56,939 nucleotides of DNA from Candidatus Moraniibacteriota bacterium (lineage in GTDB: Bacteria; Patescibacteriota; Minisyncoccia; Moranbacterales; UBA1568), in NCBI GenBank assembly GCA_018499985.2, contig JAHBAT020000007.1:1-56939 (forward strand), given 5' to 3'. Positions 799-40,822 of this stretch are shown here, in pieces. Each line of letters opens with the position of its first letter. Within the stretch, counting starts at the first letter, position 1. Under the pieces are notes generated by a model, which made no database searches, was not told where the DNA came from, and worked only from the letters and a program-made list of their open reading frames with translations. The translations under genes were made by a program, and so were the position numbers.

Positions 799-2991
799 TT
801 ATTTTTTGGGCTCAAGTTTGTGAGGGTTGTGATTTGGACAGGTCTTGTCGGAGCAGCGCTCAGGGATAGTCTTGGTTCCTTCCATCATAAGGGCTCCACA
901 AGGCTTCTTATCCTTATCTTCACGAATATAGTCACAGATATTGCCAGTAGGTTTGCTTTTGATGGCATTTTTGCAGCCAGGGTAGTTGGTACAGCTATAG
1001 AAAACTCCGAAGCGTCCGCGACGCTCTGACATCTCGCCATTTTTACACATCGGACACTTTACACCTGTGGTAGGTTGAGTGCTAGCATCTCTCTTGATGT
1101 ACTTACACTTCGGATAGTTGTTGCAGGAGACAAAGCGTCCATAGCGTCCATCGCGCTCTACGAGTTTGCCATCCTTGCAGTCCGGACAAGCCTCACCAAT
1201 TTCTTTTGGTCCCTCGAGTTCTTCGCCATCGATAGTGCGAGCACCAGTACATTCTGGAAATTTTGCACAAGAAAGAAACTTACCAGAGCGAGCAAGTTTG
1301 ACTATCATCTTGCCCTGACAGATTGGACAGAGAATATCCTCAGGGGCATCACCCATATTGGTCATCTTATCAAGCTTGTCTTTGGCTTTGACTTCTTTGG
1401 TAAAGGGAGTATAGAAGTCTTTGAGGGTCTTCGTGTAGTCACGCTTACCCTCTGCAATTTCATCGAGCTTATTTTCCATGTCAGCAGTGAAGGTGTCGGA
1501 TACGAAGTCTTGGAAGTGAAGCGAAAGAAAATCATCTACGACTTCACCTGTCTCAGTGGGCTGAAGAGCCTTACCGTCCTTCACGACATAGCCACGATCG
1601 ATAATGGTCTTGATAATAGAGGCATACGTACTTGGACGTCCAATACCACGCTTTTCTAGCTCCTTCACGAGACCAGCCTCTGAGTAGCGGTTAGGAGGAA
1701 GTGTTTCTTTGGCATCAGAAATGAGCTCTTTGAGTTTGAGTGTCTCTCCGGCTGTTAGTTTTGGAAGTTCTACATCTTCACTTCTAGCATGGGTATCAAG
1801 AGCTAGCCAGCCCAAGAAAAGAAGATGAGAGCCAGTAACACTAAAGTCTGGAAATCCTGCCTCTCCAATGTTGGCGATAATTTTGGTACGGAGTACTTTG
1901 GTATCACTCATCTGAGAAGCTACCGTACGGATACGGATAAGCTGGTAGAGACGCTTTTCCTCTTCGGTTACACCAGCAGTTTTTTTACTTGCATCGGTAG
2001 GACGGATAGCCTCATGGGCCTCCTGAGCGTTTTTGCTTTTGGTCTTAAACTCTCTTGGCATGATAAATTCTTTGCCAAACTCTTTTTCGATAGTCTTATG
2101 GATAGTAGCGACAGCATCTTTGCTCAAGGTGGTGCTATCGGTACGCATATATGTGATAAAACCCTTTTCGTAGAGCTTTTGGGCAATGCGCATAGTACGG
2201 CTCGGTGAAAAGCCAAGACGTGAGCTAGCGGCTTGCTGAAGGGTAGAAGTGGTAAAAGGAGCTTTCGGGCGCTTACTTACTTCAGAAGCCTTGACATCTG
2301 AGATGGTCCAAGTACCTTTTTGGCCACGAGAAAGAATTTCTGTAACACGCTTTTCATCGCGAGGCTCTTCATTGGCACTGAGCTCAAGAATATCCTTTTG
2401 TGTTGTTTCGAGAGTAGCACGAAGCACCCAGTATTTTTCTGGAGTAAAAGCTTGAATTTCCTTTTCACGTTCTACAAGAATATGAAGAGCAGGGGATTGT
2501 ACTCGTCCAGCAGAAAGGCCATAACGTACTTTTTTCCAGATAAGACCAGAAAGATCATATCCTACAAGACGATCAAGGACACGCCTGGCCTCCTGAGCTT
2601 TGCGAAGATTGACATCAAGTTCACGCGGATGCGCCACGGCTTCTTTGACAGCGGCTGGCGTGATTTCGTAGAAAAGAACACGCTTAGGCTTCTTGAGACT
2701 ACAGGTTTCAGCCACGTGCCATGCAATAGCCTCACCTTCACGATCGGGGTCAGTAGCAAGAAGAATCTCGGTGCTTTTTTTGGCGAGACTTTTGAGTTCA
2801 GAGACAACTTTTTCTTTGCCCGAAGAAATTTCATAGTGCGGCACAAAACCACCCTCGATATCGATGGCTTTTTTGTTGTTTTTAGGGAGATCACGAATGT
2901 GTCCTACAGAGGCTACTACCTTGTACTCATTGGCAAGGTATTTCTCTATAGTTTTGGCTTTAGAAGGGGATTCTACGATAAGAAGCTTCAT
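799..2991 (-). CDS. topA: DNA topoisomerase I (type IA)
   Basis: Type IA topoisomerase that relaxes negative supercoils by a transient single-strand break. The N-terminal Toprim domain starts MKLLIVESPSKAKTI and carries the metal-binding DPDREGE at residues 81-87. The catalytic tyrosine is Y281 in GFITYMRTDS. The core is followed by three four-cysteine zinc ribbons (each starting CPxC) and a fourth Cys-rich segment near the C-terminus, the common bacterial arrangement. At 730 residues it is of normal length. The ATG at 2991 gives the canonical N-terminus. The gene is convergent with the ZIP gene and divergent from the GH130 pair. Confidence 0.97.
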   Translation of the reverse strand: MKLLIVESPSKAKTIEKYLANEYKVVASVGHIRDLPKNNKKAIDIEGGFVPHYEISSGKEKVVSELKSLAKKSTEILLATDPDREGEAIAWHVAETCSLKKPKRVLFYEITPAAVKEAVAHPRELDVNLRKAQEARRVLDRLVGYDLSGLIWKKVRYGLSAGRVQSPALHILVEREKEIQAFTPEKYWVLRATLETTQKDILELSANEEPRDEKRVTEILSRGQKGTWTISDVKASEVSKRPKAPFTTSTLQQAASSRLGFSPSRTMRIAQKLYEKGFITYMRTDSTTLSKDAVATIHKTIEKEFGKEFIMPREFKTKSKNAQEAHEAIRPTDASKKTAGVTEEEKRLYQLIRIRTVASQMSDTKVLRTKIIANIGEAGFPDFSVTGSHLLFLGWLALDTHARSEDVELPKLTAGETLKLKELISDAKETLPPNRYSEAGLVKELEKRGIGRPSTYASIIKTIIDRGYVVKDGKALQPTETGEVVDDFLSLHFQDFVSDTFTADMENKLDEIAEGKRDYTKTLKDFYTPFTKEVKAKDKLDKMTNMGDAPEDILCPICQGKMIVKLARSGKFLSCAKFPECTGARTIDGEELEGPKEIGEACPDCKDGKLVERDGRYGRFVSCNNYPKCKYIKRDASTQPTTGVKCPMCKNGEMSERRGRFGVFYSCTNYPGCKNAIKSKPTGNICDYIREDKDKKPCGALMMEGTKTIPERCSDKTCPNHNPHKLEPKK

Positions 2992-3165
2992 ATATGATGT
3001 ATGAAAAAAGAAGAGTAAAAGAGAGGGATTTTTTTGAAGAGAAGTTTATTTTTATTTTTTACATTTTCTATCATAGTGCATGGCTTCTTTCTTTTTGGCA
3101 AGTTTTTGGCAATAAATTTTAAGAATAGAAGAGAGATTTTTGAACCGAAAGAAAGTGTATAAATG

Positions 3166-3174
3166 TGTTATAAT
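3166..3174 (+). promoter_or_regulatory. Extended -10 promoter element for the GH130 pair
   Basis: TGTTATAAT matches the extended -10 consensus (TGnTATAAT); no good -35 is seen. Transcription would start near 3181. That is downstream of the TTG at 3140 that could otherwise open the frame, so it favours the GTG at 3194 as the real start. Confidence 0.55.
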
Positions 3175-3193
3175 AAAGAAAAGAAAACAAACT

Positions 3194-5110
3194 GTGGCCA
3201 TAAAAAAAATACCAAAAAATACAATAGTTTTTCATTTAAAAGAAAAGCTCTTTCTTATTCGTCCACATGGTGGCGATAGTTTGAGCTACGTACTCAGCGA
3301 AATCAAAAATGCTAAGCAGTCGCATGTACTTTCAGGACCATTTGCGCATACCAAAAAGAGTCAAAAAAAATCTTTCGGTACTGAGCCTTACTTTCGTATA
3401 AGTGAAAGAGGAGAGCTTTCTTATATGACTTGGACCACTAAAGAGGAAGGTCTTACGATAGCTCGTATCAAAAAGCCAGGGGATTGGGAGGTGCTTAGCC
3501 AGTATGAAGAAATTTCTCGCCCAGCTGTTTTTGTTGATGCCCCAGGAACGGATAAGACAGACTACGTGTATGCTTTTTATGCCTCAGGCTCAGCAACGCT
3601 TTCAGTGGCACGACTGGCTCTTGAGAGAAAACAATTTAAGGAAATTGGTCCAGTAGCTCGTCTGGTAAAAGGGACAGAGTATGGGCCACTTACAGCGCTC
3701 CGTGCAGAAACAGTCGCTGAAGGAATCTTAATTTTCTATACTTCAGTCAATGGCTGGGGTTTTCCAATGGTAGATGCACTACTTGTAGATAAAGATGAAC
3801 CAACAGAAGTGCTTTGGAGAAGTCCAGAGCCACTCTGGGAAGCACCGCTCTCAATGCCTCTCGTAGCACCCGTTCCAGTGGCCATTGTCCATTCTCAAAA
3901 CAAACTCTTTCTGTACGTAGAGAATCATGACGGAGGAATTGATGTTTTGTCTCTACCAAAGATTCACATCAAACTTTTTCCTCAAAAGAAAACAGCAAAA
4001 GAGCTGATAGAAAAACAGTCTGTCAAAAAAAAGCACCGCACCCTGACCTCGACTGAGCTTACTCGGTATGCTGGTAATCCTCTCCTCGAACCAGTATCAG
4101 ATAATCACTGGGAAGCTTTTGCGGCTTTCAATCCAGCAGCTCTTCATATAGATGGTAGGGTGCACTTGCTGTATCGTGCCCAGGGACATGATGGTCTTTC
4201 TACTTTGGGCTATGCTTCAAGTAGTGATGGTGTCAGTATGGAAGAGCGTCTCGAATACCCAGTTTTTGTACCGAGCAGAGATTTTGATACACGTACAAAA
4301 GGAGCAGATAAGTCACCATACCCGCATGTGTCTGGCGGTGGGTATGGTGGCTGCGAAGATCCACGCCTGATTCTTATTGAAGAAACAATTTATCTTATCT
4401 ATGTGGCTTTCGATGGGGAACGTCCACCAGGAGTAGCCCTCTCTTCTATTAGTAAGAGTGATTTTTTGGCCAAGGAGTGGACTTGGACCCCACCAAGACT
4501 TATTTCAGAGCCGGGCAAGATTCAAAAAAACTGGGTACTTTTCCCAGAAAAAATCAATGGTAAGTTCGCTATCCTTCACGGCATTAGTCCAAAAGTCCAG
4601 GTAGAGTACGTGGAGAGTCTCGATGAGCTAGGTAAGAATGGCAAGTATGTAGAGAGTCTGCGTTCGCATGGAGGCCATGGCTACGAAGAAGAGGAGCGTA
4701 AGAAACACTGGGATAATATCGTTCGCGGGGCTGGGGCGCCACCTATCTATACTCCGCATGGCTGGCTTGTCTTCTACCATGCTATGGATTTCCGTGATCC
4801 GGGTAAGTATAAAGTAGGGGCTATGCTTTTGGATCTGAATAATCCAGAAAAGGTTCTTCACCGAGCCAAGCGTCCTGTCCTTGAGCCAGAGACACACTAT
4901 GAGAATCATGGACACAAGCGGGGCGTGGTCTATGTCTGTGGGGCAGTTGTCAAAGATGATGTGTTGTTTGTGTACTACGGAGCATCAGATAAGACAGTAG
5001 CAGTGGCTGCGGTATCATTCCCTGAGTTTCTAGCTGATTTGATAGCGGACAAAATGCCTATCCTCAATCGTCTCACGTATGACAATAACCGTTACTCACT
5101 TACCAAATAA
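3194..5110 (+). CDS. GH130-type five-bladed propeller protein (glycoside phosphorylase/hydrolase-like), copy 1
   Basis: The C-terminal half (from about residue 290) is a clear GH130 domain, a family of beta-mannoside phosphorylases and hydrolases with a five-bladed beta-propeller. It has repeated blade motifs such as NPLLEP, FNPAAL, YRAQGHD, GCEDPR, FPEK and FYHA. The N-terminal half has propeller-like strands (FRISERGELSYMTW, VYAFYASG) but lacks clear family motifs, so it may be a degenerate second propeller. The frame could open at a TTG at 3140, but the extended -10 lies downstream of it; GTG 3194 is chosen. It is followed after 10 bases by a related gene. Substrate is unknown; glycan turnover or capture is an inference. 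Confidence 0.75.
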   Translation: MAIKKIPKNTIVFHLKEKLFLIRPHGGDSLSYVLSEIKNAKQSHVLSGPFAHTKKSQKKSFGTEPYFRISERGELSYMTWTTKEEGLTIARIKKPGDWEVLSQYEEISRPAVFVDAPGTDKTDYVYAFYASGSATLSVARLALERKQFKEIGPVARLVKGTEYGPLTALRAETVAEGILIFYTSVNGWGFPMVDALLVDKDEPTEVLWRSPEPLWEAPLSMPLVAPVPVAIVHSQNKLFLYVENHDGGIDVLSLPKIHIKLFPQKKTAKELIEKQSVKKKHRTLTSTELTRYAGNPLLEPVSDNHWEAFAAFNPAALHIDGRVHLLYRAQGHDGLSTLGYASSSDGVSMEERLEYPVFVPSRDFDTRTKGADKSPYPHVSGGGYGGCEDPRLILIEETIYLIYVAFDGERPPGVALSSISKSDFLAKEWTWTPPRLISEPGKIQKNWVLFPEKINGKFAILHGISPKVQVEYVESLDELGKNGKYVESLRSHGGHGYEEEERKKHWDNIVRGAGAPPIYTPHGWLVFYHAMDFRDPGKYKVGAMLLDLNNPEKVLHRAKRPVLEPETHYENHGHKRGVVYVCGAVVKDDVLFVYYGASDKTVAVAAVSFPEFLADLIADKMPILNRLTYDNNRYSLTK

Positions 5111-5120: not shown

Positions 5121-7040
5121 ATGAAGTTGATTAAGCGTTGTTTTGAAAATCCAGTTTTGGTTCCGGAGAGTGATACTCCTTGGGAGTCAGAAGGAGCCTT
5201 CAATGGATCAGTGGCTCGCTACAAGGACGCTATCCATATGGTGTACCGTGCTCAGTCAAAGCCGCTGTATCATAAGACAGGAGATTGGATTTCGCTCTGT
5301 TCTATTGGTCATGCGGTGAGTGATGATGGAGTACATTTCAAGAAGCATAGTCTACTTATTAGTCCGCTTGAACAATGGGAGCGCTATGGCTTAGAGGATC
5401 CTCGTGTCACTAAGCTTGGCAATACCTACTATATTTTTTATACTGCACTTTCCACTTTTCCCTTTGGGGCAGAGGGTATCAAAGTAGCTGTCGCTTTGAC
5501 CGATGATTTCAAGACTATCAAAGAACGTCACTTAGTCACTCCTTTCAATGCCAAGGCAGCAGCGCTTTTTCCACGTAAAATCAATGGCAAGTTTGCTGTT
5601 GTTTTGACTGCCAATACTGATTTGCCACCAGGCAAGATTGGTATAGCGTACTTTGATAAAGAAGAAGATATTTGGAATCATGAGCTTTGGGCTAAGTGGT
5701 ACGAGGATGTAGATGCACATACTCTCAATCTCCAAAGAAGAACAGAGGATCATGTAGAGTTTGGTGCTCCACCTGTCTGGACAAAACATGGCTGGGTAAT
5801 TTTTTATTCCTACATCCAAAACTATCATTCGGATCATCCGCTCTTCACTGTAGAGGCGGCTCTATTGGATGCCAAAGATCCACGTAAAGTTATCGGACAT
5901 ACGGTAGCTCCACTTTTGGCCCCTGAAGAAGAATATGAAGAGTATGGCCAGGTGAAGGATATTGTCTTTCCATCTGGTATCACAGTACGAGGAGATCACT
6001 ACTCCCTCTACTATGGAGCAGCTGATACGACTACTTGTCTTGCTACAGGAAGCATGAAGGCTCTTCTTCGAGAACTTACCATGAGAGAAGATAAGCGCGT
6101 GCATTTTGAGCGTGCTCCCAAAAACCCGATTCTTACTCCGCTTCGCGAGCATGACTGGGAAGCAAAAGCAGTGCTCAATCCAGCTGCTGTAGGGGTGGGT
6201 GAGACGGTGCGTATTTTGTATCGAGCGCAGGGTCATGATGATGTATCTACGTTTGGATACGCCGAAAGTAAAAATGGTCTCAAGATTAGTCGTCGTGATA
6301 AGTCGCCAGTCTATGTACCACGCAAGGAATTTGAGATGAACAAAAATGGGGGTAACTCTGGCTGTGAAGATCCGCGCATTACCAAGCTTGATCATGCATA
6401 CTACATGCTCTATACCGCGGTAGATACAGTCAATCCACCAAGAGTAGCTCTGACCAGTATCTCCGCGCGAGACTTTGAAGCTCGTCACTTCGATGAGTTT
6501 TCAGAGCCAGTTCTCATCTCTCCGCCAGGTATCGATGACAAGGACGCTTGTTTGTTTCCAGAAAAAATCGGAGGTAAGTATGTGATTCTTCATCGTATCC
6601 AACCGTCTATCGATATCAACTATTTTGATTCGCTCGACTTTGATGGGGAGACAAATTTCTTGACCCACAAACCTTTTATTTTTCCACGGCGCGGTATGTG
6701 GGATAGTGCGAAGATTGGTATTAATACGGTCCCGATTAAGACTAAAGCTGGGTGGCTCGTGTTTTATCATGGGGTCTCTGATCAGGACAAGGGTTATCGT
6801 GTAGGAGCACTTCTCTTAGATCTCAAAAAACCAGAAGTCATTCTTGGACGAAGCCGTTTACCACTTTTTTCTCCGGAGATGGAATACGAGCGGGTGGGAG
6901 TAGTGCCAAATGTAGTTTTTCCATGTGGAGCAGTGGTACGTCAAGGAAAAGTATTTCTCTACTATGGTGGGGCAGACAGAGTGGTGGGAGTAGCGACACT
7001 TTCGCTTAATACTTTGCTAAAGGATTTGACGGAAGCTTAG
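5121..7040 (+). CDS. GH130-type protein with two tandem propeller domains, copy 2
   Basis: Two GH130-like domains in one chain. The first covers about residues 1-320 (NPVLVPESDTPWES, YRAQSKP, GLEDPRVTK, FPRKING, FYSY). The second starts near residue 330 (NPILTPLREHDWEAKA, YRAQGHDDVSTFGYAE, GCEDPRITK, FPEKIGGK, FYHGVSDQDKGY). Each domain ends with the blade-closing YYGAAD or YYGGAD motif. ATG 5121 is chosen over the upstream ATG at 5079 because the latter lies inside the preceding gene and adds unrelated residues. It probably forms an operon with the previous gene. The last three bases overlap the convergent dprA. GH130 enzymes act on beta-linked mannosides; the substrate here cannot be stated. 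Confidence 0.82.
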   Translation: MKLIKRCFENPVLVPESDTPWESEGAFNGSVARYKDAIHMVYRAQSKPLYHKTGDWISLCSIGHAVSDDGVHFKKHSLLISPLEQWERYGLEDPRVTKLGNTYYIFYTALSTFPFGAEGIKVAVALTDDFKTIKERHLVTPFNAKAAALFPRKINGKFAVVLTANTDLPPGKIGIAYFDKEEDIWNHELWAKWYEDVDAHTLNLQRRTEDHVEFGAPPVWTKHGWVIFYSYIQNYHSDHPLFTVEAALLDAKDPRKVIGHTVAPLLAPEEEYEEYGQVKDIVFPSGITVRGDHYSLYYGAADTTTCLATGSMKALLRELTMREDKRVHFERAPKNPILTPLREHDWEAKAVLNPAAVGVGETVRILYRAQGHDDVSTFGYAESKNGLKISRRDKSPVYVPRKEFEMNKNGGNSGCEDPRITKLDHAYYMLYTAVDTVNPPRVALTSISARDFEARHFDEFSEPVLISPPGIDDKDACLFPEKIGGKYVILHRIQPSIDINYFDSLDFDGETNFLTHKPFIFPRRGMWDSAKIGINTVPIKTKAGWLVFYHGVSDQDKGYRVGALLLDLKKPEVILGRSRLPLFSPEMEYERVGVVPNVVFPCGAVVRQGKVFLYYGGADRVVGVATLSLNTLLKDLTEA

Positions 7041-8155
7041 AGGGGTGTCCTTATGTATTGCATCGCGCCAATATTTTTGACAAAACCCTGAAGCTCGAGG
7101 AGTGTCAGTCCAGATTGCACTTCACCAATGCTCAGGCCAGTAGCTCGAGTAATAGTATTGAGGTGAGTGGGTTCATGCGAGAGAGCTCGATAAATTTTTT
7201 GCACTTGAGGAGAGAGACCGCTTAGGTCTCTTTTTTGTGTAGGGGCATTTTTTGGTTTAGAGATTCTTTCAGGGGCAATTTCTTCTATGATATCTCGGGC
7301 ATGGGTGACAAGCTTCGCTCCGTGCTTCAGGAGCATATGCGTACCATTTGAACTAGGTGAAAAAATAGAACCAGGAATAGCAAAGACTTCTCGATTGTAG
7401 TCTAGGGCCAGAGTAGCGGTTATAAGACTCCCACTTCCTTCGGCCGCCTCTATCACAAGTGTGCCATGACACATGCCAGCAATGATACGATTACGAAGAG
7501 CAAAGTAGGCAGGGAGGATAGTAGTGCCAGGAGGATGCTCAGATATGAGAGCACCCTTGGTGAGGATGCTTTGGGCGAGGGTGTAGTTGGAGCGCGGAGC
7601 AATGCTTTGGTTATCAATACCACCACCCAAGACGGCAAGCGTGATGCCCTTAGCATCGAGGGCGCCAGTATGAGCTTTTTTGTCGATACCAAAAGCCAAG
7701 CCAGAGATTACGATAAAGCCTGCTTGGGAGAGATCGTAGGCAAGTCGAAGAGCCACTTGTTCTCCATAGGCGGTAAATTTACGCGAACCGACAATAGCAA
7801 TGCTCGGTTTATGATCGAGCTCGTGCCAGTCAAACTGACCTCGAACATAGAGAAGATATGGATGGTCAGGAATTTCCTTGAGGAGTCGAGGGTAGGATGA
7901 ATCATGGATAGTAAGGAGTCGTATACCATCGGCACTCAGTTTTTGGTAGGCTACCTCTGGTGAAGGATTATAGGTGTGACGCTTTGCGAAGGACTCTTTG
8001 GGTTTAGGGGCAAGCTCAAGAGATGAAGGGAATTCTTTGGCAAGCCAAGCGTCCCTGGCTGAGCCAAAGGTGGCGATGACTTTACGTAGACTCTTGTCCC
8101 CAAAAAGGGGGAGTGAACGTAGAGCATGAAGATAGATATATTCTTCTTGTGACAT
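7037..8155 (-). CDS. dprA: DNA-processing protein A (single-strand DNA and RecA loader)
   Basis: DprA/Smf protects incoming single-stranded DNA during transformation and loads RecA. The Rossmann-like core shows the typical segments AIVGSRKFTAYGE, GFIVISGLAFGIDKKAH, TLAVLGGGID, YFALRNRIIAGMCHGTLVIEA and SGSLITATLALDYNREVFAIPG. A C-terminal winged-helix segment follows a linker. The frame is open up to 8275, but ATG 8155 (MSQEEYIYLHALR) gives the normal N-terminal helical domain; the extra 40 residues look non-homologous. Stops of dprA and the convergent GH130 gene overlap. Its presence fits the DNA-uptake capacity often reported for Patescibacteria. Confidence 0.93.
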   Translation of the reverse strand: MSQEEYIYLHALRSLPLFGDKSLRKVIATFGSARDAWLAKEFPSSLELAPKPKESFAKRHTYNPSPEVAYQKLSADGIRLLTIHDSSYPRLLKEIPDHPYLLYVRGQFDWHELDHKPSIAIVGSRKFTAYGEQVALRLAYDLSQAGFIVISGLAFGIDKKAHTGALDAKGITLAVLGGGIDNQSIAPRSNYTLAQSILTKGALISEHPPGTTILPAYFALRNRIIAGMCHGTLVIEAAEGSGSLITATLALDYNREVFAIPGSIFSPSSNGTHMLLKHGAKLVTHARDIIEEIAPERISKPKNAPTQKRDLSGLSPQVQKIYRALSHEPTHLNTITRATGLSIGEVQSGLTLLELQGFVKNIGAMQYIRTPL

Positions 8156-8287
8156 AGAAGAGATTTTCTTTATTACCGTCCAAAGCGAGTATAACAAAAA
8201 GACTTTTGTTATCGAGCGAGGTAAGGTAACAAATAGTGTATGGTTTATTTTCTCAAAGAGCTCCCTATATGACAATAGGAAAAAGGC

Positions 8288-8315
8288 TTTACAAAATACA
8301 TTATTTTGCTACAAT
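8288..8315 (+). promoter_or_regulatory. Promoter of tRNA-Ala
   Basis: TTTACA, 16-nt spacer, TACAAT; the -10 ends 29 bases before the tRNA. The same TACAAT -10 and 16-nt spacing occur before tRNA-Ile. Confidence 0.7.
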
Positions 8316-8344
8316 CTATAGGTTCCTATACTTTATATAGACAT

Positions 8345-8417
8345 GGGCCCTTAGCTTAGTTGGTAGAGCGCCGCATTTGCAATGCGGAGGTCATCGGTTC
8401 GAATCCGATAGGGTCCA
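8345..8417 (+). tRNA. tRNA-Ala (TGC)
   Basis: Complete cloverleaf: acceptor GGGCCCT/AGGGTCC with the G3:U70 pair that identifies tRNA-Ala, anticodon TGC in the loop of CCGCA/TGCGG, T-arm ATCGG-TTCGAAT-CCGAT, discriminator A. CCA is not encoded. Its last 16 bases plus one (8402-8418) are repeated at 8506-8522. Confidence 0.97.
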
Positions 8418-8430
8418 CTGTAAAATTAAA

Positions 8431-8522
8431 ATGACTCCTTTAGGGGAGGCATTGTGACATTCTATCGGATGAGAAGTTTATGCTCGGTAGCGTAGCGGAC
8501 GGGTAAATCCGATAGGGTCCAC
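8431..8522 (-). mobile_element. Integration scar 1: right-end remnant of an element targeting tRNA-Ala
   Basis: Three parts match, in order, the right end of the 29-kb island at 44374-44490. First, a terminator-like hairpin (8431-8453). Second, a 7-bp stem TATCGGA (8463-8469)/TCCGATA (8508-8514) enclosing a 21-nt block (8469-8489) identical to 44429-44449. Third, a 17-nt copy of the tRNA-Ala 3' end plus its next base (8506-8522). Read on the minus strand it encodes the tail GPYRIYPSATLPSINFSS and a TAA in the hairpin loop, i.e. the end of a recombinase gene whose body is gone. Interpreted as a leftover attachment end after deletion or excision. Confidence 0.75.
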
Positions 8523-8530
8523 ACAATAAC

Positions 8531-8586
8531 TATCAGATGAAAAGTTTGCGCTTGAGCTTTGCTTAGGTAAATCTGATAGGGTCCGC
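8531..8586 (-). mobile_element. Integration scar 2: second attachment-end remnant
   Basis: A more diverged copy of the same structure. The outer stem is TATCAGA (8531-8537)/TCTGATA (8572-8578). The block TGAAAAGTTTGCGCT follows, then an inner 7-bp hairpin CTTGAGC-TTT-GCTTAGG (8551-8567), then GGTAAAT and a tRNA 3'-end-like GATAGGGTCCGC. The minus strand reads DLPKQSSSANFSSD, resembling the tails of the other two copies. Stem differences from scar 1 are compensated on both strands. Confidence 0.65.
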
Positions 8587-8677
8587 ATTTGGACTAAATC
8601 TTCAAATAAGAATCAGTGCAGGTGGAAGAGTAGGTTCTTTGTCTAAGTTTAGAAAACTTTTTAACAAATAGGTGTTT

Positions 8678-9484
8678 ATGGGAAGAAAACAAATTCAGCA
8701 TTTTGTAGAAGAACAATGGTTCACTCGCTTGGTGATAGTCATTATTATCGTCAATGCTTTAGTCCTTGGTCTTGAAACCTCAAAGTCTATCATGGCAGAG
8801 TGGGGAGGTATCTTGCATGCCATGGATGTCGCCTTTATACTCTTTTTTCTTTTTGAGTTAGGTCTAAAGCTTTTTGCTTATCGTCTACAGTTTTTTCGAG
8901 GTGGCTGGAATATTTTTGATTTTGTCATTGTTGTACTGACAGTAGTGCCTGTTTTTGGCAATCTTTCAGTCCTGCGTTCATTGCGCATACTACGAGCATT
9001 GAGATTGTTTTCTATGATTCCTCGCTTCAGGCTGGTGGTGGAGGGATTCTTTGATGCGCTTTCTGGATTGGTGGCGGTCGCTACGATGCTTTTTGTTATG
9101 GTATATATAGCAGCTGTTATGGCGACCAAACTTTTTGGAGGAGCTTTTCCAGAAATTTTTGGTACGCTGACAAAGTCACTTTTCTCTATGTTTCAGCTAG
9201 TCACTCTCGAAGGTTGGACATCAGAAATAGTACGACCAGTGATGGAAGTTTATCCGTGGGCATGGCTGTTTTTCATTCCGTTTATTGGCTTGACTACTTT
9301 TACCATCTTCAACTTATTGATTGGTATTATCGTTAATTCCATGCAGCGTATCTACGAAAAAGAAGAGCAAGAGCTCTACAATGAGCTCCATAAGAGTGAG
9401 GAAACGCAGGAGGACATCCTAGAAAAAATACATACTATTGAGAGTACACTCAATGATCTCAAGAAAGCTCTCAAAAGAGAGTAG
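8678..9484 (+). CDS. Voltage-gated cation channel (bacterial Nav-like)
   Basis: Six-helix single-domain voltage-gated channel that would assemble as a tetramer in the cytoplasmic membrane. S1-S4 occupy roughly residues 15-125. S4 carries regularly spaced arginines (RSLRILRALRLF). The pore loop is TLEGWTSE, at the position where NaChBac-type sodium channels have TLESW. The C-terminus is a charged coiled coil (EEQELYNELHK onward), as in NaChBac. ATG 8678 is chosen over GTG 8672 because it has an AGGTG-like motif just upstream. The Ser-to-Gly change in the filter makes ion selectivity uncertain (Na+ or Ca2+). Confidence 0.85.
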   Translation: MGRKQIQHFVEEQWFTRLVIVIIIVNALVLGLETSKSIMAEWGGILHAMDVAFILFFLFELGLKLFAYRLQFFRGGWNIFDFVIVVLTVVPVFGNLSVLRSLRILRALRLFSMIPRFRLVVEGFFDALSGLVAVATMLFVMVYIAAVMATKLFGGAFPEIFGTLTKSLFSMFQLVTLEGWTSEIVRPVMEVYPWAWLFFIPFIGLTTFTIFNLLIGIIVNSMQRIYEKEEQELYNELHKSEETQEDILEKIHTIESTLNDLKKALKRE

Positions 9485-9554
9485 CCTTTCATTTGCAGAA
9501 GTAAGGAGTATACTAGAGGTGTACATATACTATTTAGCTTTAATAATAAATCCT

Positions 9555-9953
9555 ATGTTTGTGAAGCTCTACCTTGTAGCACTAGTCACTTTTTTTGCGC
9601 TCGACATGACCTGGCTTGGCCTCATCGCCAAAAATTTGTATCGTGAGCAAATTGGGCATTTGCTTCGTCCTGATGTCAATTGGACAGCGGCTATTATTTT
9701 TTACTTGCTCTTTATTGGAGGTTTAGTTGTCTTTGTGATTAGTCCAGCGGTGCAGAAGCAGTCATTGATGTCAGCTTTACTTCTAGGGGCTTTCTTTGGA
9801 TTGATTACGTATGCCACCTATGATCTGACCAATCTCGCGACTACCAAGGACTGGCCTCTCTTTATCACCATAGTAGACCTTATTTGGGGTGCCGTACTTT
9901 CTGCGAGTGTCTCAGTAGTCACGTACTTTGTGTATACTCGCTTCATAGGTTAA
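9555..9953 (+). CDS. DUF2177-like membrane protein
   Basis: Small integral membrane protein of about 132 residues with four predicted helices and the pattern ALDMTWLGLIAKNLYREQIGH near the N-terminus and TYDLTNLATTKDWP in the third helix, both characteristic of DUF2177 proteins. The frame is open from 9438, but that would overlap the channel gene in another frame; ATG 9555 gives the normal family start. It is followed after 4 bases by the DUF1295-like gene, and the two are probably co-transcribed. No biochemical function is established for the family. Confidence 0.75.
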   Translation: MFVKLYLVALVTFFALDMTWLGLIAKNLYREQIGHLLRPDVNWTAAIIFYLLFIGGLVVFVISPAVQKQSLMSALLLGAFFGLITYATYDLTNLATTKDWPLFITIVDLIWGAVLSASVSVVTYFVYTRFIG

Positions 9954-9957
9954 GCAT

Positions 9958-10725
9958 ATGTCTTTTTTTCTTATCTTGGCACTGATACTCTTTGTCTTCA
10001 TGAACTTTTGGTTTGCACTATCACTTGTGCGTAAGCGCAATGACGTCGCTGATGTTGCCTGGGGACTCGGCTTTGTCATCCTTACTTGGTGCGGACTACT
10101 CATGTCCGGTATGTATGAATCTCGCCAGATACTGGTCACAGTACTCGTGACATTATGGGGTATCCGTCTTGCTTGGCATATTCATGCCCGTAATAGTAAG
10201 AAGGGTGAAGATCCTCGGTATCAGGCCTGGCGCGAAGCGTGGGGAAGATGGTTTATTGTGCGTTCGTATTTTCAGGTGTATATCCTTCAGGGAATACTTC
10301 TTTATTTAATTGTATTGCCAGTGCTTTTTGTGCAGTGGTTTGGTGGGCCCGAGCTCGGAGTCTTGGACTTAGTCGGTGTCTTGGTGTGGGGACTTGGCTT
10401 CTACTTTGAAGCTGTAGGGGATAGGCAGCTCCGAGACTTTATCAAGGACAAATCCAATCAGGGAAAAATTTTGACTACAGGATTGTGGCACTATACGAGG
10501 CACCCAAATTATTTCGGCGAAGTGACTCAGTGGTGGGGGATTTGGCTGATCGCCCTTTCGGCACCGGGAGCCTTTTTTACCTTTATTGGGCCTATGACTA
10601 TCACGTACCTTATTGTTTTTGTCTCTGGTATTCCTATGCTCGAAAAGCGCTACGAGGGTAATACTCTATTTGAAGCATACCAAAAAACCACTAGCGTGTT
10701 CTTTCCTTGGTTCAAAAAGAGATAG
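9958..10725 (+). CDS. DUF1295 / steroid 5-alpha-reductase-like membrane protein
   Basis: Multi-helix membrane protein of 255 residues. The N-terminus has DVAWGLGFV; the C-terminal half has GLWHYTRHPNYFGEVTQWWG followed by GIPMLEKRYEG, the conserved signature of the DUF1295 family related to isoprenylcysteine methyltransferases and steroid reductases. The RHPNYFGE region is the cofactor-binding part in relatives. It starts 4 bases after the DUF2177-like gene. Substrate unknown; a lipid or isoprenoid modification is the usual expectation. Confidence 0.82.
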   Translation: MSFFLILALILFVFMNFWFALSLVRKRNDVADVAWGLGFVILTWCGLLMSGMYESRQILVTVLVTLWGIRLAWHIHARNSKKGEDPRYQAWREAWGRWFIVRSYFQVYILQGILLYLIVLPVLFVQWFGGPELGVLDLVGVLVWGLGFYFEAVGDRQLRDFIKDKSNQGKILTTGLWHYTRHPNYFGEVTQWWGIWLIALSAPGAFFTFIGPMTITYLIVFVSGIPMLEKRYEGNTLFEAYQKTTSVFFPWFKKR

Positions 10726-10729
10726 AGAC

Positions 10730-10758
10730 TTGACGAAGTGACAAAAATATGCTACTCT
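10730..10758 (+). promoter_or_regulatory. Strong sigma70-type promoter
   Basis: TTGACG, 17-nt spacer, TACTCT, immediately after the DUF1295-like gene. It precedes the gene at 10805, which has an AGAAGGAG ribosome binding site. Confidence 0.8.
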
Positions 10759-10804
10759 ATATAGTCCCCATTTAACCTAGGTGGACAGAAGGAGTACATA
10801 GAGA

Positions 10805-11326
10805 ATGTCGACGACATACTTGCATGCCCTGGTGGCGGAAGTTGATGCCATCAGCGATGAAGACTTGGCGGGGCAACTGACCAGGCTTCCGAAGCCCGGT
10901 GAATCGGAAACGATTCTCGGGCGCGCTTCACCCAAGCTGCTTCAGCTCCATGCCCTTTTCGGCATGACGATCGACGCAGCAAATGCTGCAGCTGATCAGT
11001 TCAATGCTGCTCGCGGCGCAGACGAACCCAATGTTGAAGAGCTCGAAAGGCTCGACAAGGAACACTCGGTTCTCAAGAAGAAACTGAAGACCCTCGAGTT
11101 CGCTTTCTGGCAGTCGGTCGCCGCTGAATATCTGCTTCCGGAAGATGCCTCTGGGTATGCTATCCGGGCCGAAGGCGATATCGTGGCCATGCCCAAGCAG
11201 AATGACGGGATGCATTTCATCGCCATCGATATCAGCGGCCTGTTTGGCGGTGGCGGATCGGATGATCCGTTGGGTAGACTTTTTGGCGATCTGTTTGGTC
11301 GCCACCGTGGTCGCCGTCCCAACTAG
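10805..11326 (+). CDS. Hypothetical soluble protein, GC-rich gene
   Basis: Unrecognised 173-residue protein. It has a helical acidic N-terminal half with a predicted coiled coil around residues 75-100 (VEELERLDKEHSVLKKKLKT) and a glycine-rich C-terminus ending in Arg-rich GRHRGRRPN. No signal peptide or membrane segment. It has its own promoter (10730-10758), good Shine-Dalgarno and own terminator, so it is a monocistronic unit. Base composition is clearly more GC-rich than the flanking core genes, suggesting separate ancestry. Function not assignable. Confidence 0.75.
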   Translation: MSTTYLHALVAEVDAISDEDLAGQLTRLPKPGESETILGRASPKLLQLHALFGMTIDAANAAADQFNAARGADEPNVEELERLDKEHSVLKKKLKTLEFAFWQSVAAEYLLPEDASGYAIRAEGDIVAMPKQNDGMHFIAIDISGLFGGGGSDDPLGRLFGDLFGRHRGRRPN

Positions 11327-11357
11327 CTCGTTTGTTGGTGATAGCTAGCTCCTGGTT

Positions 11358-11397
11358 CCCCGGTTCGCACATGTTGCGGGCCGGGGGATTATTTTTT
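11358..11397 (+). terminator. Intrinsic terminator
   Basis: Stem CCCCGG-TT-CGCA / TGCG-GG-CCGGGG with a short loop, followed by a TTATTTTTT tract. It ends the 10805-11326 transcript. Confidence 0.85.
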
Positions 11398-11442
11398 AGG
11401 GATTAAAAATTATTGTAAGGATTTAAAAAAGAAAAAAGAAAC

Positions 11443-11471
11443 TTGACATTATTCATGAAAAAGGTTATTGT
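11443..11471 (+). promoter_or_regulatory. Promoter of the secreted-protein/CsgG-like unit
   Basis: TTGACA, 17-nt spacer, TATTGT; transcription would start near 11478, about 60 nt before the ATG at 11537. Confidence 0.8.
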
Positions 11472-11536
11472 ACAGGGCGCTTCATGAAGAAAATAGTGAA
11501 GTGTTGATGCATGTTTTTTTAACATTGGAGTCAGTG

Positions 11537-11995
11537 ATGAAAGAGAAAATAACCTCTGTATGTATGGGTCTGGCACTTGCCTGTTTGGCAGGTCCAGCCT
11601 TGGCTCAGGAGAGTCCTACGGGAACCTGGGGCAACTCTGTCACCTGGAAAAACCCCTTTGATCGTTCTGTCGATCTGAGTGTTGCCGAATCTACCAAGCG
11701 TTCACGCTCTGGTGGCTACGGTCCGGGTGACGTCAATACTACTTACAATGGTGACGTGTCTAGCTATACCACCAACAATGGTCCGGTGACTAGCAACAGC
11801 GCGACCAACGCGGTCAATCTGACCACGAGCACTTCTACTGTAACCAACGGAAATGGTACGGTGGGAGTGACATTTCAGACTGGTTCTACCAGCTGGAACG
11901 CCAGTCAGGGTGCTACTGCTCAAGGTGCTTCCAGTACCAATGGCAATGCCAGTAATGGCGCCAGTGGCACGGTAACAGGATCTTCTGGCAACTAA
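11537..11995 (+). CDS. Secreted Asn/Ser/Thr/Gly-rich protein next to CsgG-like gene
   Basis: 152 residues beginning with a clear Sec signal peptide (KEKI, hydrophobic core, ALA-QES cleavage). The mature part is low-complexity, dominated by Asn, Ser, Thr and Gly with alternating patterns, and contains NPFDRSVDLS. This composition is typical of extracellular fibre or adhesin subunits. The next gene encodes a CsgG/HfaB-like protein, so by position it resembles curli subunits or the holdfast anchor HfaA, but no direct homology can be shown here. ATG 11537 is chosen because GGAG lies 6 bases upstream and the signal peptide starts there; the frame is open further upstream. Confidence 0.72.
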   Translation: MKEKITSVCMGLALACLAGPALAQESPTGTWGNSVTWKNPFDRSVDLSVAESTKRSRSGGYGPGDVNTTYNGDVSSYTTNNGPVTSNSATNAVNLTTSTSTVTNGNGTVGVTFQTGSTSWNASQGATAQGASSTNGNASNGASGTVTGSSGN

Positions 11996-12043
11996 CGAGA
12001 ATTTTTCGTTGTTGTTGATTTAGCGTAACTAAGGGGAAAATCA

Positions 12044-12928
12044 TTGCATAGAGTAAAGTTTGGCCTCATGGCATCCGTTGTCCTGAGCGCAGGTCTTTCC
12101 ACAGGAGTTCTTGCAAAGCCGGTAGCTGTTCCGCAGACTTCGGCTCCGCGAGAGTACGTCAACCCTTACCAGCCAGCCCTCGAATGCTTGGCTTCTCAGC
12201 TCACACCTCAGCAAAAGGCCACAACTATCGGCGTAGCTTACTTTGCTGAAAGGACCGGCAAGGAAGCCTATGCACCAGAAGGAGCATCGGGTAAATTCTT
12301 ATCTCAAGGCAGTGAAGACATGCTGATTGGCGACTTAGCCACGACAGGCATGACTGCTGTCGAGGTAGGGCCTGTCTATCGTCAGCTCACCGACTGGGTT
12401 ATGCCACGGCTGCCTCGCAATGATGCGAATGGGAGACCCATTCAGTATAATGCGGCTTTGCCGGACATCATCATTGAAGGGTCATTTTCTACCCTCGATT
12501 TCGGCAACTCCGACGTCAAAGAACTCTATATCTTTGGTATCGGAGGAGGTGCTCGCTCGTACAGTATCCGGTACACACTGGATGCTCGGGCGACCAGCAT
12601 GGTAGGGGGGTCGCTTCCGGGCGGCGTCGTGTTGACACACTTGGCTTTGGTCAAGGATGTCGTAGGGCGCGAAAAGAAAGCGGGAGTGGCGAGCTTCTTT
12701 GGAGCTCCAAGCTCTTCGACCTATGTCGAGCTGAATATCAATACCCAAAAGCGCGAGCTTTTGCAGTATTCTCAGCGCTACATGGTCAGCCGGGCAGCCT
12801 ATGGTATCGTCGCTGGTCTTTGGAAAATCAACACTTGTCAGGCTCAGCTCGACTGGGGTGATAGTGTGATCTCTGGGGTGCCCGTGACAGCCTTATCTCA
12901 GGCTGATTCCAGGCCGGCCGGGCAGTAA
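12044..12928 (+). CDS. CsgG/HfaB-like secretion-channel protein
   Basis: 294 residues with a signal peptide (ending near VLAKP). The CsgG-like core shows TIGVAYFAERTGKEA, FLSQGSEDMLIGDL, a PDIIIEGSFSTLD strand, IFGIGGGARSYSI and a later helix (residues ~200-265). CsgG forms the outer-membrane secretion pore for curli, and HfaB has the related role for the Caulobacter holdfast. A TTG start at 12044 is supported by AAGGGG 7 bases upstream. The usual lipobox cysteine after the signal peptide is not seen. An outer-membrane pore protein is surprising in a lineage thought to lack an outer membrane. The gene is GC-rich compared with the core. Confidence 0.75.
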   Translation: MHRVKFGLMASVVLSAGLSTGVLAKPVAVPQTSAPREYVNPYQPALECLASQLTPQQKATTIGVAYFAERTGKEAYAPEGASGKFLSQGSEDMLIGDLATTGMTAVEVGPVYRQLTDWVMPRLPRNDANGRPIQYNAALPDIIIEGSFSTLDFGNSDVKELYIFGIGGGARSYSIRYTLDARATSMVGGSLPGGVVLTHLALVKDVVGREKKAGVASFFGAPSSSTYVELNINTQKRELLQYSQRYMVSRAAYGIVAGLWKINTCQAQLDWGDSVISGVPVTALSQADSRPAGQ

Positions 12929-12941
12929 TACACTCTGACTC

Positions 12942-12970
12942 TTGACAAGAAAACGCACATGCGTTAGAGT
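12942..12970 (+). promoter_or_regulatory. Promoter upstream of second secreted protein
   Basis: TTGACA, 17-nt spacer, TAGAGT. The transcript would have a leader of about 180 nt before the ATG at 13158. Confidence 0.8.
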
Positions 12971-12988
12971 GAAATCCGTTCCTAGTGA

Positions 12989-13072
12989 ATGCAAAAAAGA
13001 AAACCCACTGCAACTTTGGTTGCTGTGATCGTTCTCTCTCTTACATTTGCTAAGAATGTTCCCACTCCTTAA
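12989..13072 (+). CDS. Possible 27-residue hydrophobic leader peptide
   Basis: Short frame MQKRKPTATLVAVIVLSLTF... with a basic N-terminus and one hydrophobic segment, starting about 12 nt after the expected transcription start. The distance to the promoter and the membrane-like composition suggest translation, but there is no convincing ribosome binding site. It could be a small membrane peptide or a regulatory leader for the gene at 13158. Confidence 0.35.
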   Translation: MQKRKPTATLVAVIVLSLTFAKNVPTP

Positions 13073-13157
13073 CTGAGAAGCTAAGGAGGTTTTCGCACCG
13101 AATGGGGACAACAATGAGTAATGCTCGTTGAGGTGTATTTGAAAGAAGGAAGTACTC

Positions 13158-13598
13158 ATGAAGTTCAAGGTTTCGTCGCTCGCCATTGCCGTCGCTGCCC
13201 TCGTTTCGCTCGGGGCGCCGGCATCCGCTGCGGTGGTCGATATCTCGGGGGTCTCCAATGCCACGAACAACGTCCGCGTCGGTGATACCGAGCAGGTCGC
13301 TGTGGCACTCGATGGTTCGCTGGGCCCGGTCGCCTTCGACTCGTCGGTCGATCTGTCGGCCACGAACCTGGTGAATACCGCCACGGCCAACATCGGCGTC
13401 GACCAGGCCAACGGCGTGCTCGAATTCATCAACTACAGCGCCATCGGCAACGTCGCCAACAACCAGTCCTATGGCCAGGTTGGCCAGCTGGCGGTGACTG
13501 GCAGCCTCACCGGCGCCGTGACCAACAACTCGCACGTCACCGGTTCGGCGCTCAACAGCGTCAATCTCGGCGCCACGACCATCACGGTCAAGCAGTAA
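13158..13598 (+). CDS. Secreted low-complexity protein, GC-rich gene
   Basis: 146 residues with a textbook signal peptide (MKFKVSSLAIAVAALVSLG, cleavage after ASA). The mature protein has repeated Asn/Val/Gly/Ala/Ser strand-like segments (SNATNNVRVGD, NTATANIGVDQANG, NVANNQSYGQVGQLAVTGS) and ends with strand-forming residues, consistent with a beta-rich surface or fibre protein. AAGGA lies 7 bases before the ATG. It has the highest GC content of this part of the window and its own promoter and terminator. Being next to the CsgG-like gene, it may be a secreted client or an anchor subunit; this is inference. Confidence 0.72.
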   Translation: MKFKVSSLAIAVAALVSLGAPASAAVVDISGVSNATNNVRVGDTEQVAVALDGSLGPVAFDSSVDLSATNLVNTATANIGVDQANGVLEFINYSAIGNVANNQSYGQVGQLAVTGSLTGAVTNNSHVTGSALNSVNLGATTITVKQ

Positions 13599-13670
13599 CC
13601 CTGCGCCCCCTTCGTCCTCACCAGGGACAAGGTTTGATTGCTCTCAGCATCGTCTGATGTGATCATGAAG

Positions 13671-13712
13671 TGCCCGCTCTTGTGTAACAACAAGGGCGGG
13701 CATTTTTCTTTT
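13671..13712 (+). terminator. Intrinsic terminator
   Basis: Stem TGCCCGCTCTTGT / ACAAGGGCGGGCA around a short loop, then TTTTTCTTTTT. Confidence 0.88.
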
Positions 13713-13768
13713 TCTAGGTATAATTCGCTATACTATTTGTATATCTTTTTCATATCCCATAATTACGC

Positions 13769-15402: not shown

Positions 15403-15479
15403 GGACCGGTAGCTCAGCTGGTTAGAGCGCTCGCCTGTCACGCGAGAGGTCGCGGGTTCGAATCCCGTCCGGTCCGCCA
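15403..15479 (+). tRNA. tRNA-Asp (GTC) with encoded CCA
   Basis: Acceptor GGACCGG/CCGGTCC, anticodon GTC in CTCGC/GCGAG, T-arm CGGG-TTCGAAT-CCCG, discriminator G and encoded CCA at 15477-15479. It is the only tRNA in the window with encoded CCA. The 3' end is the left attachment core of the island, and the CCA appears to come from the element. Confidence 0.97.
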
Positions 15480-17000
15480 TTCGGTACAAGCAGTCCCAAA
15501 AGGGGCTGTTTTTGTTTTAGTAGATACCCCTAAGGGTGGTTCGAAGGTGCCCATTTTGGCCGTTACGCTTTCTACATCTTCTTGGAGCCATGAAAAAGGC
15601 TCATTGAGGTTAAAGTAAGCGATATTTCGGTCTTGAATAGCAAAGTTCGAAGATATGAGACCGGCTACCTCTCGACGGAGGTGCGGATCAGCATTTTGGA
15701 AAATATCGTGAGCACTTTTTACAAAATGAATAATCTGATCGAGGTCAGCCAGTACACTCTCTGATTTCTTGGCTCTGCCCGTGAGACGTTCTTCGAGCGT
15801 GCTTTCTTCTTTGGTTATCTCGCTCAGTTTCTTTTCATAGATACTCTTCGGGATAGAATTGTCGATGTATTTCTCAATCAAAGAATCTTTGCGGATAGCT
15901 ACTTCACTAAGAAGCTTCTTCACTTCTTCTTTCGATGTGCTCTCGTGTTCTTCTAGGTGGAGATACTTTTCTTTGGCAGCGTCTACGATGAGTTCAAGTA
16001 CCTCATCATCAAACTGAATCTTCTTGAGCTCCTCTTCTATCTTCTCTGTCAGTATCTCCTCTCGGAGGTAGGGCTGTGAGCATGCTTTAGTGCCACGTGA
16101 CTTCGTACAGCGGTAGTACGTGTGACCCTTGCTCGTCTCTGCTGTTATCTTTAGCCCACACTCTCCGCAAAGAGCGAGGCCACGAAAGAGAAAGAAATGA
16201 TCATCGGCTCGGGTGAGCTGTTGGCTGGCAGGGGCGAGGCTTTTTCTAGCTTCCTCGAAAAGCGACTTTGATACAAGGGGAGTGTGCACTCCTTTGTGGA
16301 CTTCACCATTCCATTCAAAGAGTCCGCAGTAGAGCGGGTTAGAAAGTATGCGTTGTAGTCTCGCATGATTAACCTTCTTCCCTCGTACAGAGCGAAAGCC
16401 ATCCTCGTAGAGCTTGTCAGATATCTTTCGTATCGACCACCGCTTGGTGGCGTAGAGTTGGAAAGCCTCGCGGATGTAGGGGGCAATCTTTGGATCAATC
16501 TTGAGAAACTTCGTTTTGGGGTCAATGGTATATCCCAAGACATGATTGCCTGGATATTCTCCGCGTCTCACTTTAGCAGCGAGGCCTCGCTTTACATTGT
16601 TACTCAGGTCTCGTACGTACTGATTAGCAATACTAAACTCAATGCTCGCTATCACTACATTATCTTCTGGATTGTAGTCTCTATCAAACGTCTTGATGCG
16701 TTTGATGGTGTTGTTCTGAAGAAGCCACTTGATAGCTCCCTCGTCTACTGGGTTACGAGCGAGGCGGTCAATCTTCCAGCAGAGTATTCCTTCTGCTTTG
16801 CCTTGTTCGATATATTTCATCATCTCGGCAAAGACAGGGCGGCCTGGGGCTTTGGCAGATTTGGCCTCTTGAAAAACTTTCACCACGTCGAGCTTCTCTC
16901 GCTTGGCTATTTCTTCCATCTCTATAATCTGTGATTGGATAGACAAAGACTGTCTGTCTTCACTCTCACTCGATTTTCTGGCGTAGATAATATACCTCAT
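15438..17000 (-). CDS. Large serine recombinase (probable integrase) whose end is antisense tRNA-Asp
   Basis: 520 residues in the integrated form. The N-terminal resolvase domain begins MRYIIYARKSSESEDRQSLS with the catalytic Ser in RKSSE, then DRLARN. A recombinase domain follows (about residues 165-260), then a zinc ribbon (CGECGLKI...YYRCTKSRGTKAC) and a long coiled coil (about 340-440). The final residues WRTGRDSNPRPLA and the TGA stop are encoded by the antisense strand of tRNA-Asp. In the predicted circle the frame would instead continue LPGIQAEWIPSINFSS to a TGA at 44394-44396, giving about 539 residues. Its position at attL points to a role in integration and excision. Confidence 0.9.
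   Translation of the reverse strand: MRYIIYARKSSESEDRQSLSIQSQIIEMEEIAKREKLDVVKVFQEAKSAKAPGRPVFAEMMKYIEQGKAEGILCWKIDRLARNPVDEGAIKWLLQNNTIKRIKTFDRDYNPEDNVVIASIEFSIANQYVRDLSNNVKRGLAAKVRRGEYPGNHVLGYTIDPKTKFLKIDPKIAPYIREAFQLYATKRWSIRKISDKLYEDGFRSVRGKKVNHARLQRILSNPLYCGLFEWNGEVHKGVHTPLVSKSLFEEARKSLAPASQQLTRADDHFFLFRGLALCGECGLKITAETSKGHTYYRCTKSRGTKACSQPYLREEILTEKIEEELKKIQFDDEVLELIVDAAKEKYLHLEEHESTSKEEVKKLLSEVAIRKDSLIEKYIDNSIPKSIYEKKLSEITKEESTLEERLTGRAKKSESVLADLDQIIHFVKSAHDIFQNADPHLRREVAGLISSNFAIQDRNIAYFNLNEPFSWLQEDVESVTAKMGTFEPPLGVSTKTKTAPFGTACTEWRTGRDSNPRPLA
15461..15477. repeat. Left attachment core (attL)
   Basis: 17-nt sequence aatcccgtccggtccgc covering the T-stem 3' strand, acceptor 3' strand and discriminator of tRNA-Asp. 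It is repeated exactly, in the same orientation, at 44474-44490. Confidence 0.8.
15491..15516 (+). terminator. Terminator after tRNA-Asp, supplied by the element
   Basis: CAGTCCC-AAAA-GGGGCTG then TTTTTGTTTT, starting 12 bases after the tRNA. It lies inside the recombinase coding region on the opposite strand, so the element brings its own stop signal for tRNA transcription. Confidence 0.75.
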
Positions 17001-34805: not shown

Positions 34806-35013
34806 ATAATTGTTGCTAAGGATTATTTAATTATGTATCAAATCTAGATTTTTAAGGTACACAAAGGGCCCCACAATCCGGCGGTAACCTTTCGATCACC
34901 CAGTAGCTCTTTCGAGTACTGACCTTAGCAACAAGTACCGGCTGTGAGGCCGTTTCTGTTGCTAAGGATTTATTGCGCCATGCTCACATTTCTATGAGTT
35001 TAGGCTGGATTGT
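34806..35013 (-). promoter_or_regulatory. Switch-like structured 5' leader (riboswitch candidate)
   Basis: Leader between the promoter and the ATG at 34805. On the minus strand CCTTAGCAAC (34967-34958), GTTGCTAAGG (34932-34923) and CCTTAGCAAC again (34821-34812) occur in that order. The central copy can pair perfectly with either side, and the last copy ends 6 nt before the start codon. Further helices: CAGTACTC-GAAA-GAGCTACTG, GGTGA/TTACC, GGC-CTCACA-GCC, CTCA/TGAG, and long-range CAATCC/GGATTG that closes the domain. This is the architecture of an RNA switch controlling translation; no known class is recognised. Confidence 0.65.
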
Positions 35014-35019
35014 ACCCCC

Positions 35020-35048
35020 AGTATATCTTTTTAAAGTACTTTTATCAA
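35020..35048 (-). promoter_or_regulatory. Promoter of the tRNA_anti-like gene
   Basis: Minus strand TTGATA, 17-nt spacer, TATACT; transcription would begin near 35013. Confidence 0.8.
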
Positions 35049-35073
35049 TATAGAGCTTTATATCAGGGTGGTT

Positions 35074-36393: not shown

Positions 36394-36479
36394 GTATCTA
36401 TTGATGACGCACTTCAATAGATTTGCTAAGTCTATGCAAAAACAGTGATTTATCGCATAATAGCACTTTGAAAAAAAGG

Positions 36480-39668: not shown

Positions 39669-39685
39669 ACATTTTTTATAAAAAT

Positions 39686-40813: not shown

Positions 40814-40822
40814 AGGTTTAAT

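Follow-up and report, generated by a model that had tools for sequence, protein, structure and literature searches.

The locus described here lies in a 56,939-nucleotide window, contig 12 of a 24-contig draft genome (892 kb, 98.6% complete) of a Candidatus Moraniibacteriota bacterium, whose compared phylum-mates also have small genomes of about 0.3-1.3 Mb. A promoter-like site and a terminator-like hairpin bracket three intact plus-strand open reading frames (ORFs) in it (Table 1), and each encoded protein starts with a hydrophobic, signal-peptide-like N-terminal stretch, in agreement with an earlier note on this DNA that had described a pore gene flanked by small secreted proteins. The pattern TTGACN-17-TANNNT precedes all three transcription units of the region, that of the upstream 173-aa ORF included, and is present in 5% of host upstream regions vs. 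none of 86 in proteobacterial loci, so that the suggested local type of the promoters holds. The 173-aa ORF itself, with its own promoter-like site and terminator, is part of the foreign block yet falls outside positions 11443-13712; family searches returned no match for it, and searches of 54 related genomes and of plasmids no relative.

Table 1. Features of the hfa-like cluster and its upstream neighbor, in window coordinates
Feature	Position	Strand	Basis
Promoter-like site TTGACG-17-TACTCT, 5' of an unrelated foreign ORF	10730..10758	+	pattern scan
173-aa ORF, GC3 0.62, familyless foreign neighbor; system membership unproven	10805..11326	+	ORF, family and relative searches
Intrinsic-terminator-like hairpin between the 173-aa ORF and the hfa unit	11353..11391	+	
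Promoter-like site TTGACA-17-TATTGT of hfaA-hfaB; -35 at 11443	11443..11471	+	pattern scan
hfaA-like gene, 152 aa; signal peptide, DRSVDLSVAESTKRSRSGGYG motif, Thr/Ser/Gly/Asn-rich tail	11537..11995	+	HMM
Putative hfaB/csgG-family pore gene, 294 aa, TTG start; signal peptide without lipobox cysteine	12044..12928	+	profiles, predicted structure
Promoter-like site TTGACA-17-TAGAGT of the third gene; 187-nt leader downstream	12942..12970	+	pattern scan
Third gene, small secreted protein, 146 aa, GC3 0.84; hfaD position	13158..13598	+	
Intrinsic-terminator-like hairpin, end of cluster	13667..13706	+	

On profile and modeling grounds, membership of the central protein in the CsgG/HfaB family, as proposed in the earlier note, can be regarded as established, its lipid anchor excepted: it is settled by the combination of a family profile, a predicted structure and a phage family match. 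The protein matches NCBIfam HfaB at 6.6e-11 (41.9 bits) and stays below the strict 300-bit equivalog cut-off, which the phage protein (237 bits) and further HfaB of Proteobacteria do not reach either; it matches Pfam CsgG at 0.008 only, under the gathering score, and the phage family phrog_20175 at 4.3e-16, better than NCBIfam HfaB. A 27-row profile of its family recovers the CsgG chains of the PDB with an E value of 1.5e-12, and conserved HfaB columns, including Cys48 and Cys265, are kept in the alignment. Structure prediction, which had been put forward as a check, points the same way: the AlphaFold2 model (pLDDT 69.8) contains the long CsgG strands, and the PDB entries that it matches best are without exception CsgG, alone or with CsgF (Z 13.2, 225 residues, rmsd 7.5 Å), ranked ahead of non-CsgG folds at Z about 10. 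Differences in the placement of flexible parts account for the high rmsd, and it is the ranking that is decisive. In the transmembrane strands of the model, just one of four segments tested has a significant beta-amphipathic pattern, a result that counts against the secretion reading proposed below and is not otherwise used.

Relatives of the pore protein are distant and proteobacterial, which bears out the foreign origin suggested previously. By tblastn, CsgG/HfaB proteins with 24-27% identity over most of its length are found on Vibrio, Photobacterium and Pacificitalea plasmids, and a three-row alignment search of public genomes yielded 28 loci, 23-29% identical, in Rhodobacterales, Aureimonas and other Alphaproteobacteria as well as in Polynucleobacter, Polaromonas and a Methylophilales betaproteobacterium. 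The best identity to any known homolog is 30%, and single-protein scans of genome contigs and viral contigs produced no close relative. The more specific expectation of a source in the Alphaproteobacteria is not borne out by phylogeny: the branch leading to the protein is very long (7.7-8.5 changes per site), and under AU tests it may group with the phage and Vibrio rows or with two alphaproteobacterial metagenome-assembled genomes, neither placement being rejected.

In nearly all proteobacterial loci examined, a small secreted HfaA-like protein with a W...DRS.L.QADL...K.E.GYY region is encoded directly upstream of hfaB and an Ala/Ser/Thr/Asn-rich secreted protein downstream, the exceptions being Polynucleobacter, where the latter protein lies upstream, and the Vibrionaceae plasmids, where secreted genes are found downstream of CsgG/HfaB only; this is the arrangement hfaA-hfaB-hfaD of Alpha- and Betaproteobacteria, to which the cluster conforms, and it extends to a Rhodobacterales plasmid and to Brevundimonas phages. 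In the cluster, the 152-aa protein scores 24.9 bits against an HMM of 18 HfaA-like proteins, above the best of 2000 signal-peptide-keeping shuffles (10.4 bits), and the first gene is therefore assigned as hfaA-like. Without the signal peptide the scores are 10.6 vs. 6.5 bits, so that the margin mostly needs the whole protein; as judged from this profile, the homology goes beyond composition, the mature part being 18% T, 17% S, 15% G and 12% N. The third protein, rich in Val, Ala and Asn and also in Thr/Gly, fits hfaD by position and composition only: an HfaD profile and 20 pairwise comparisons, with proteins that are low in complexity and fast-evolving, gave scores no better than shuffles, and a reading as an HfaD homolog finds no support in them. 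Its model, predicted without an alignment, is uninformative (pLDDT 38). A Z of 3.4 to a single curlin of G812, a genome of the same class, came from one of 22 tests and is not counted as evidence of a curlin relationship. The third protein also displays 22% self-identity at an offset of 63, which hints at an internal repeat.

Set against known systems, the cluster is a partial member of the HfaABD system, with HfaA and HfaB represented and HfaD not detectably so. It has in common with the holdfast anchor HfaA-HfaB-HfaD of Caulobacter and other Alphaproteobacteria the central CsgG-family gene, the upstream HfaA-like protein with its DRS-L-(Q)ADL-K-GYY region and the downstream secreted repeat-like protein, but its HfaB is at most 30% identical, remains under the NCBIfam equivalog cut-off and has no lipobox cysteine, its third protein has no detectable HfaD homology and its own promoter, its host has no Omp85, and no holdfast polysaccharide genes are seen nearby. 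In Caulobacter, HfaB is required for the surface placement of HfaA and HfaD, and HfaA is a CsgA-like protein that forms SDS-resistant multimers (PMC6707917). With curli, or type VIII, secretion (CsgG with CsgA, B, E and F) the cluster shares the pore fold and family, whereas Pfam searches of its proteins (Curlin_rpt, CsgE, CsgF) found neither curlin repeats nor CsgE nor CsgF, the full set of which occurs in a genome of the same class, G812, discussed below. The HfaB proteins of Caulobacterales jumbo phages (CcrColossus, CcrPW, Domovoi, Bambus and their kin) belong to the same family as the pore protein, and those of Brevundimonas phages sit in a three-gene cassette ordered as in the cluster; they differ in keeping the lipobox and are 22-26% identical to it. 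In Domovoi (3447-5976 of L013) and Bambus (2431-4949 of L014) these hfaA-hfaB-hfaD-like cassettes are annotated as hypothetical, and HfaB is also found in three sister phages and in the Caulobacter phages CcrColossus and CcrPW. On the Photobacterium (5998-8071, L007) and Vibrio alginolyticus (5968-7900, L008) plasmids, CsgG/HfaB is accompanied by genes for two small secreted proteins, and in V. alginolyticus the set adjoins repB-parA-parB.

CsgG is a lipoprotein. The lipobox column holds a cysteine in every aligned proteobacterial, phage and plasmid homolog and Leu18 in the pore protein, whose first cysteine is Cys48 and which has a type I site (VLA/KP) downstream of Leu18; because the lipobox cysteine is missing, the protein is predicted to be non-lipidated. 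CsgG without its lipid is known as a pre-pore form, in the words of the title of PDB 4uv2. The loss is not simply disuse of the lipoprotein pathway, since an ORF on contig 1 of the same genome has a clear lipobox, from which the host would seem able to make lipoproteins.

The known site of CsgG/HfaB pores is the outer membrane. Searched with positive controls (7 of 14 control genomes), the host genome contains no Omp85, the outer-membrane marker at which the search was aimed, and no other outer-membrane machinery was found in the places examined. Patescibacteria are reported to have no outer membrane (PMC12102498), and the tension between a CsgG-like pore and the envelope that the earlier note had pointed out is supported. 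The note's further suggestion, that the cluster might itself be a sign of an unusual envelope, fares less well: with the lipobox lost and no other outer-membrane machinery found, it lends that idea no support.

Composition and distribution bear on how the cluster arrived. The description of the cluster as GC-rich applies to its ORFs, with GC3 values of 0.49 (hfaA), 0.56 (hfaB) and 0.84 (third gene), next to 0.62 for the 173-aa ORF, against a host median of 0.38 and a 95th percentile of 0.53; it does not apply to the gaps, which are AT-rich. By a per-base 4-mer score of host vs. proteobacterial loci, host-like values are obtained for all four gaps (10726-10804, 11327-11536, 12929-13157, 13599-13768; +0.39 to +0.70, and +0.49 to +0.70 inside the island) and for the flanks (+0.44 to +0.50), whereas the third gene (-0.51) and the 173-aa ORF (-0.21) are donor-like and hfaA and hfaB are intermediate. 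GC-rich synonymous sites in the third gene beside such native-looking gaps are not explained by gradual amelioration. The cluster occurs in 1 of 184 related genomes, being absent from the other 183, and profile searches found few CsgG-domain genes within the phylum, a sporadic distribution that fits gain by transfer. Neither direct repeats nor an integrase were found at the island ends. Of 12 genus relatives, none has the flanking DUF1295 gene, and a single one has the EVE gene, there with different neighbors.

We propose, at a little better than even confidence, that a secretion module of the hfaAB type reached this genome by horizontal transfer, came under host-style promoters and terminators and is reused for surface attachment. 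Judged by its sequence relationships, the module is related to the holdfast anchor HfaA-HfaB-HfaD and to type VIII/curli secretion; it was apparently taken over from a distant donor and modified on the way. All three proteins would exit the cytoplasm via Sec, HfaB would oligomerize into a CsgG-like ring, and this ring, by analogy with Caulobacter, may pass or hold the HfaA-like protein; the latter and perhaps the third protein would be the clients, building a sticky, possibly amyloid, surface layer or fiber that may aid attachment to a surface or a host cell. With the anchoring cysteine gone and Omp85 missing, we expect a non-lipidated ring that lies outside the cytoplasmic membrane; as a conjecture, its place of action would be the wall, a surface layer (S-layer) or another cell, and not a classical outer membrane. 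Cultivated members of the Patescibacteria are described as living on other cells, and their mode of gripping host cells as largely open (PMC12206443); given this way of life, adhesion to a partner cell would be the natural use of such a module. Homology, gene order, signal peptides, the lost cysteine, rarity and host-like control signals are seen in the data, while transfer, secretion of the HfaA-like protein by HfaB, adhesion and location are inferred. Against the proposal stand a host without Omp85, and hence without the usual site of the pore, the lack of a demonstrable HfaD and the occurrence in a single genome. A bolder version is at present a long shot: the bacterium would be a monoderm episymbiont that sends out amyloid-like clients and a CsgG-family ring without lipid, and this ring, working beyond the cytoplasmic membrane of the cell that made it and possibly inserted in the outer membrane of its Gram-negative partner, would serve to build an attachment structure.

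The most obvious objection is that a piece of a proteobacterial genome, or of its phage, was joined into the contig by misassembly or misbinning, and the uniqueness of the cluster in the genus and among 184 relatives, coding GC well over that of the host, homologs that are proteobacterial only at the sensitivity used and the draft state of the genome would all be expected from such an error. A chimeric join would, however, bring foreign gaps along with foreign genes; since the intergenic DNA inside the island is host-like and only the ORFs are not, a simple assembly chimera is disfavored. Both junctions lie within intergenic DNA, all three transcription units carry the promoter pattern that is rare in proteobacterial loci, no known genome holds a close copy, and contig 4 (G000:C4) has another array of secreted, GC-rich ORFs with like punctuation. 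We therefore regard a chimera as improbable and the island as very probably real. Somewhat less improbable, if still doubtful, is that the genes were acquired and no longer make up a secretion system, either as remnants or because their secreted products moonlight and form no pore: the branch length, the lost lipobox, the low Pfam score and the missing outer membrane speak for this, but all three ORFs are intact and equipped with signal peptides, promoters and terminators, the invariant columns with Cys48 and Cys265 are kept, and the model retains the long CsgG-like strands with CsgG as top match.

Alternatively, the module could be phage- or plasmid-borne and serve the element, for instance in receptor change or superinfection exclusion, and not the attachment of the cell. 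Precedents exist, as HfaB occurs in jumbo phages of Brevundimonas and of Caulobacter, in the former with hfaA-like and repeat-protein neighbors, and Vibrio and Photobacterium plasmids have CsgG/HfaB beside partition or transposase genes; the pore protein moreover matches phrog_20175 better than NCBIfam HfaB, and phage-type genes are present at 35-43 kb of the window. Within 10.7-13.8 kb, by contrast, there are no phage or mobile genes, the nearest recombinase (15438-17000) is on the other strand and beyond a tRNA cluster, and the viral contigs searched hold no close relative, which leaves a service to an element very unlikely. The acquired attachment module remains our preferred reading, and the cluster appears, from its sequence, to be a divergent, lipid-less HfaAB-type variant of the CsgG family in a cell where the usual membrane is apparently missing.

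A profile search of the class further showed that another small genome, G812 (97% complete), has a curli operon with all its parts. Located at 6587-12580 of G812:C6:132000-149000, in a contig of 207 kb, it encodes CsgE (2.6e-25), CsgF (1.6e-42), CsgG (2.1e-65), two proteins that each have five curlin repeats and a protein with a weak match to an outer-membrane barrel. The lipobox is retained in this CsgG, the operon's coding GC is 0.41-0.50 vs. 0.35 in the flanks, and in G812, too, the search found no Omp85. Because this operon is independent of the hfa cluster, outer-membrane secretion parts appear, on the evidence of draft genomes, to have entered the class at least twice. Curli were reported from four phyla in 2012 (PMC3521004), and our literature search, its coverage excluding subscription journals and preprints, turned up no paper that describes CsgG, curli or Hfa genes from Patescibacteria. 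Together, the two loci mean one of two things: parts for secretion across an outer membrane can be put to new use in cells that have none, or the envelope of some of these cells is of a kind still undescribed. The cluster raises the testable question of how such small, apparently single-membrane cells attach to others. Other candidates were set aside: G726, G525, G446, G412 and G869 contain lone CsgG or LpoB-like lipoprotein genes and not Hfa or curli operons, and the match in G367 is a false one to a histidine kinase region. In G726, a small genome of the same class, the gene at 7122-8665 of L049 encodes a CsgG-domain lipoprotein fused to a peptidoglycan-binding domain and adjoins a PEGA-domain protein.

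Several features elsewhere in the host genome deserve mention. The array on G000:C4 (1-4081) consists of small secreted GC-rich ORFs, with GC3 up to 0.77, separated by AT-rich gaps and with TTGACA-17-TATAAT promoters and terminators around each ORF; those at 2903-3346 and 3527-4003 are paralogs, and no Pfam family is represented in the array. In the window, at 15403-17000, the serine recombinase ORF downstream of the cluster ends inside a tRNA-Asp gene and adjoins the tRNA cluster (Ile, Met, Met, Asp). Next comes, at 18.5-26.2 kb, a restriction-modification region of low GC, and a phage-type block on the minus strand (34883-42000) comprises a LOOT RNA (RF03000), a serine recombinase, a terminase-like protein and a DNA methylase.
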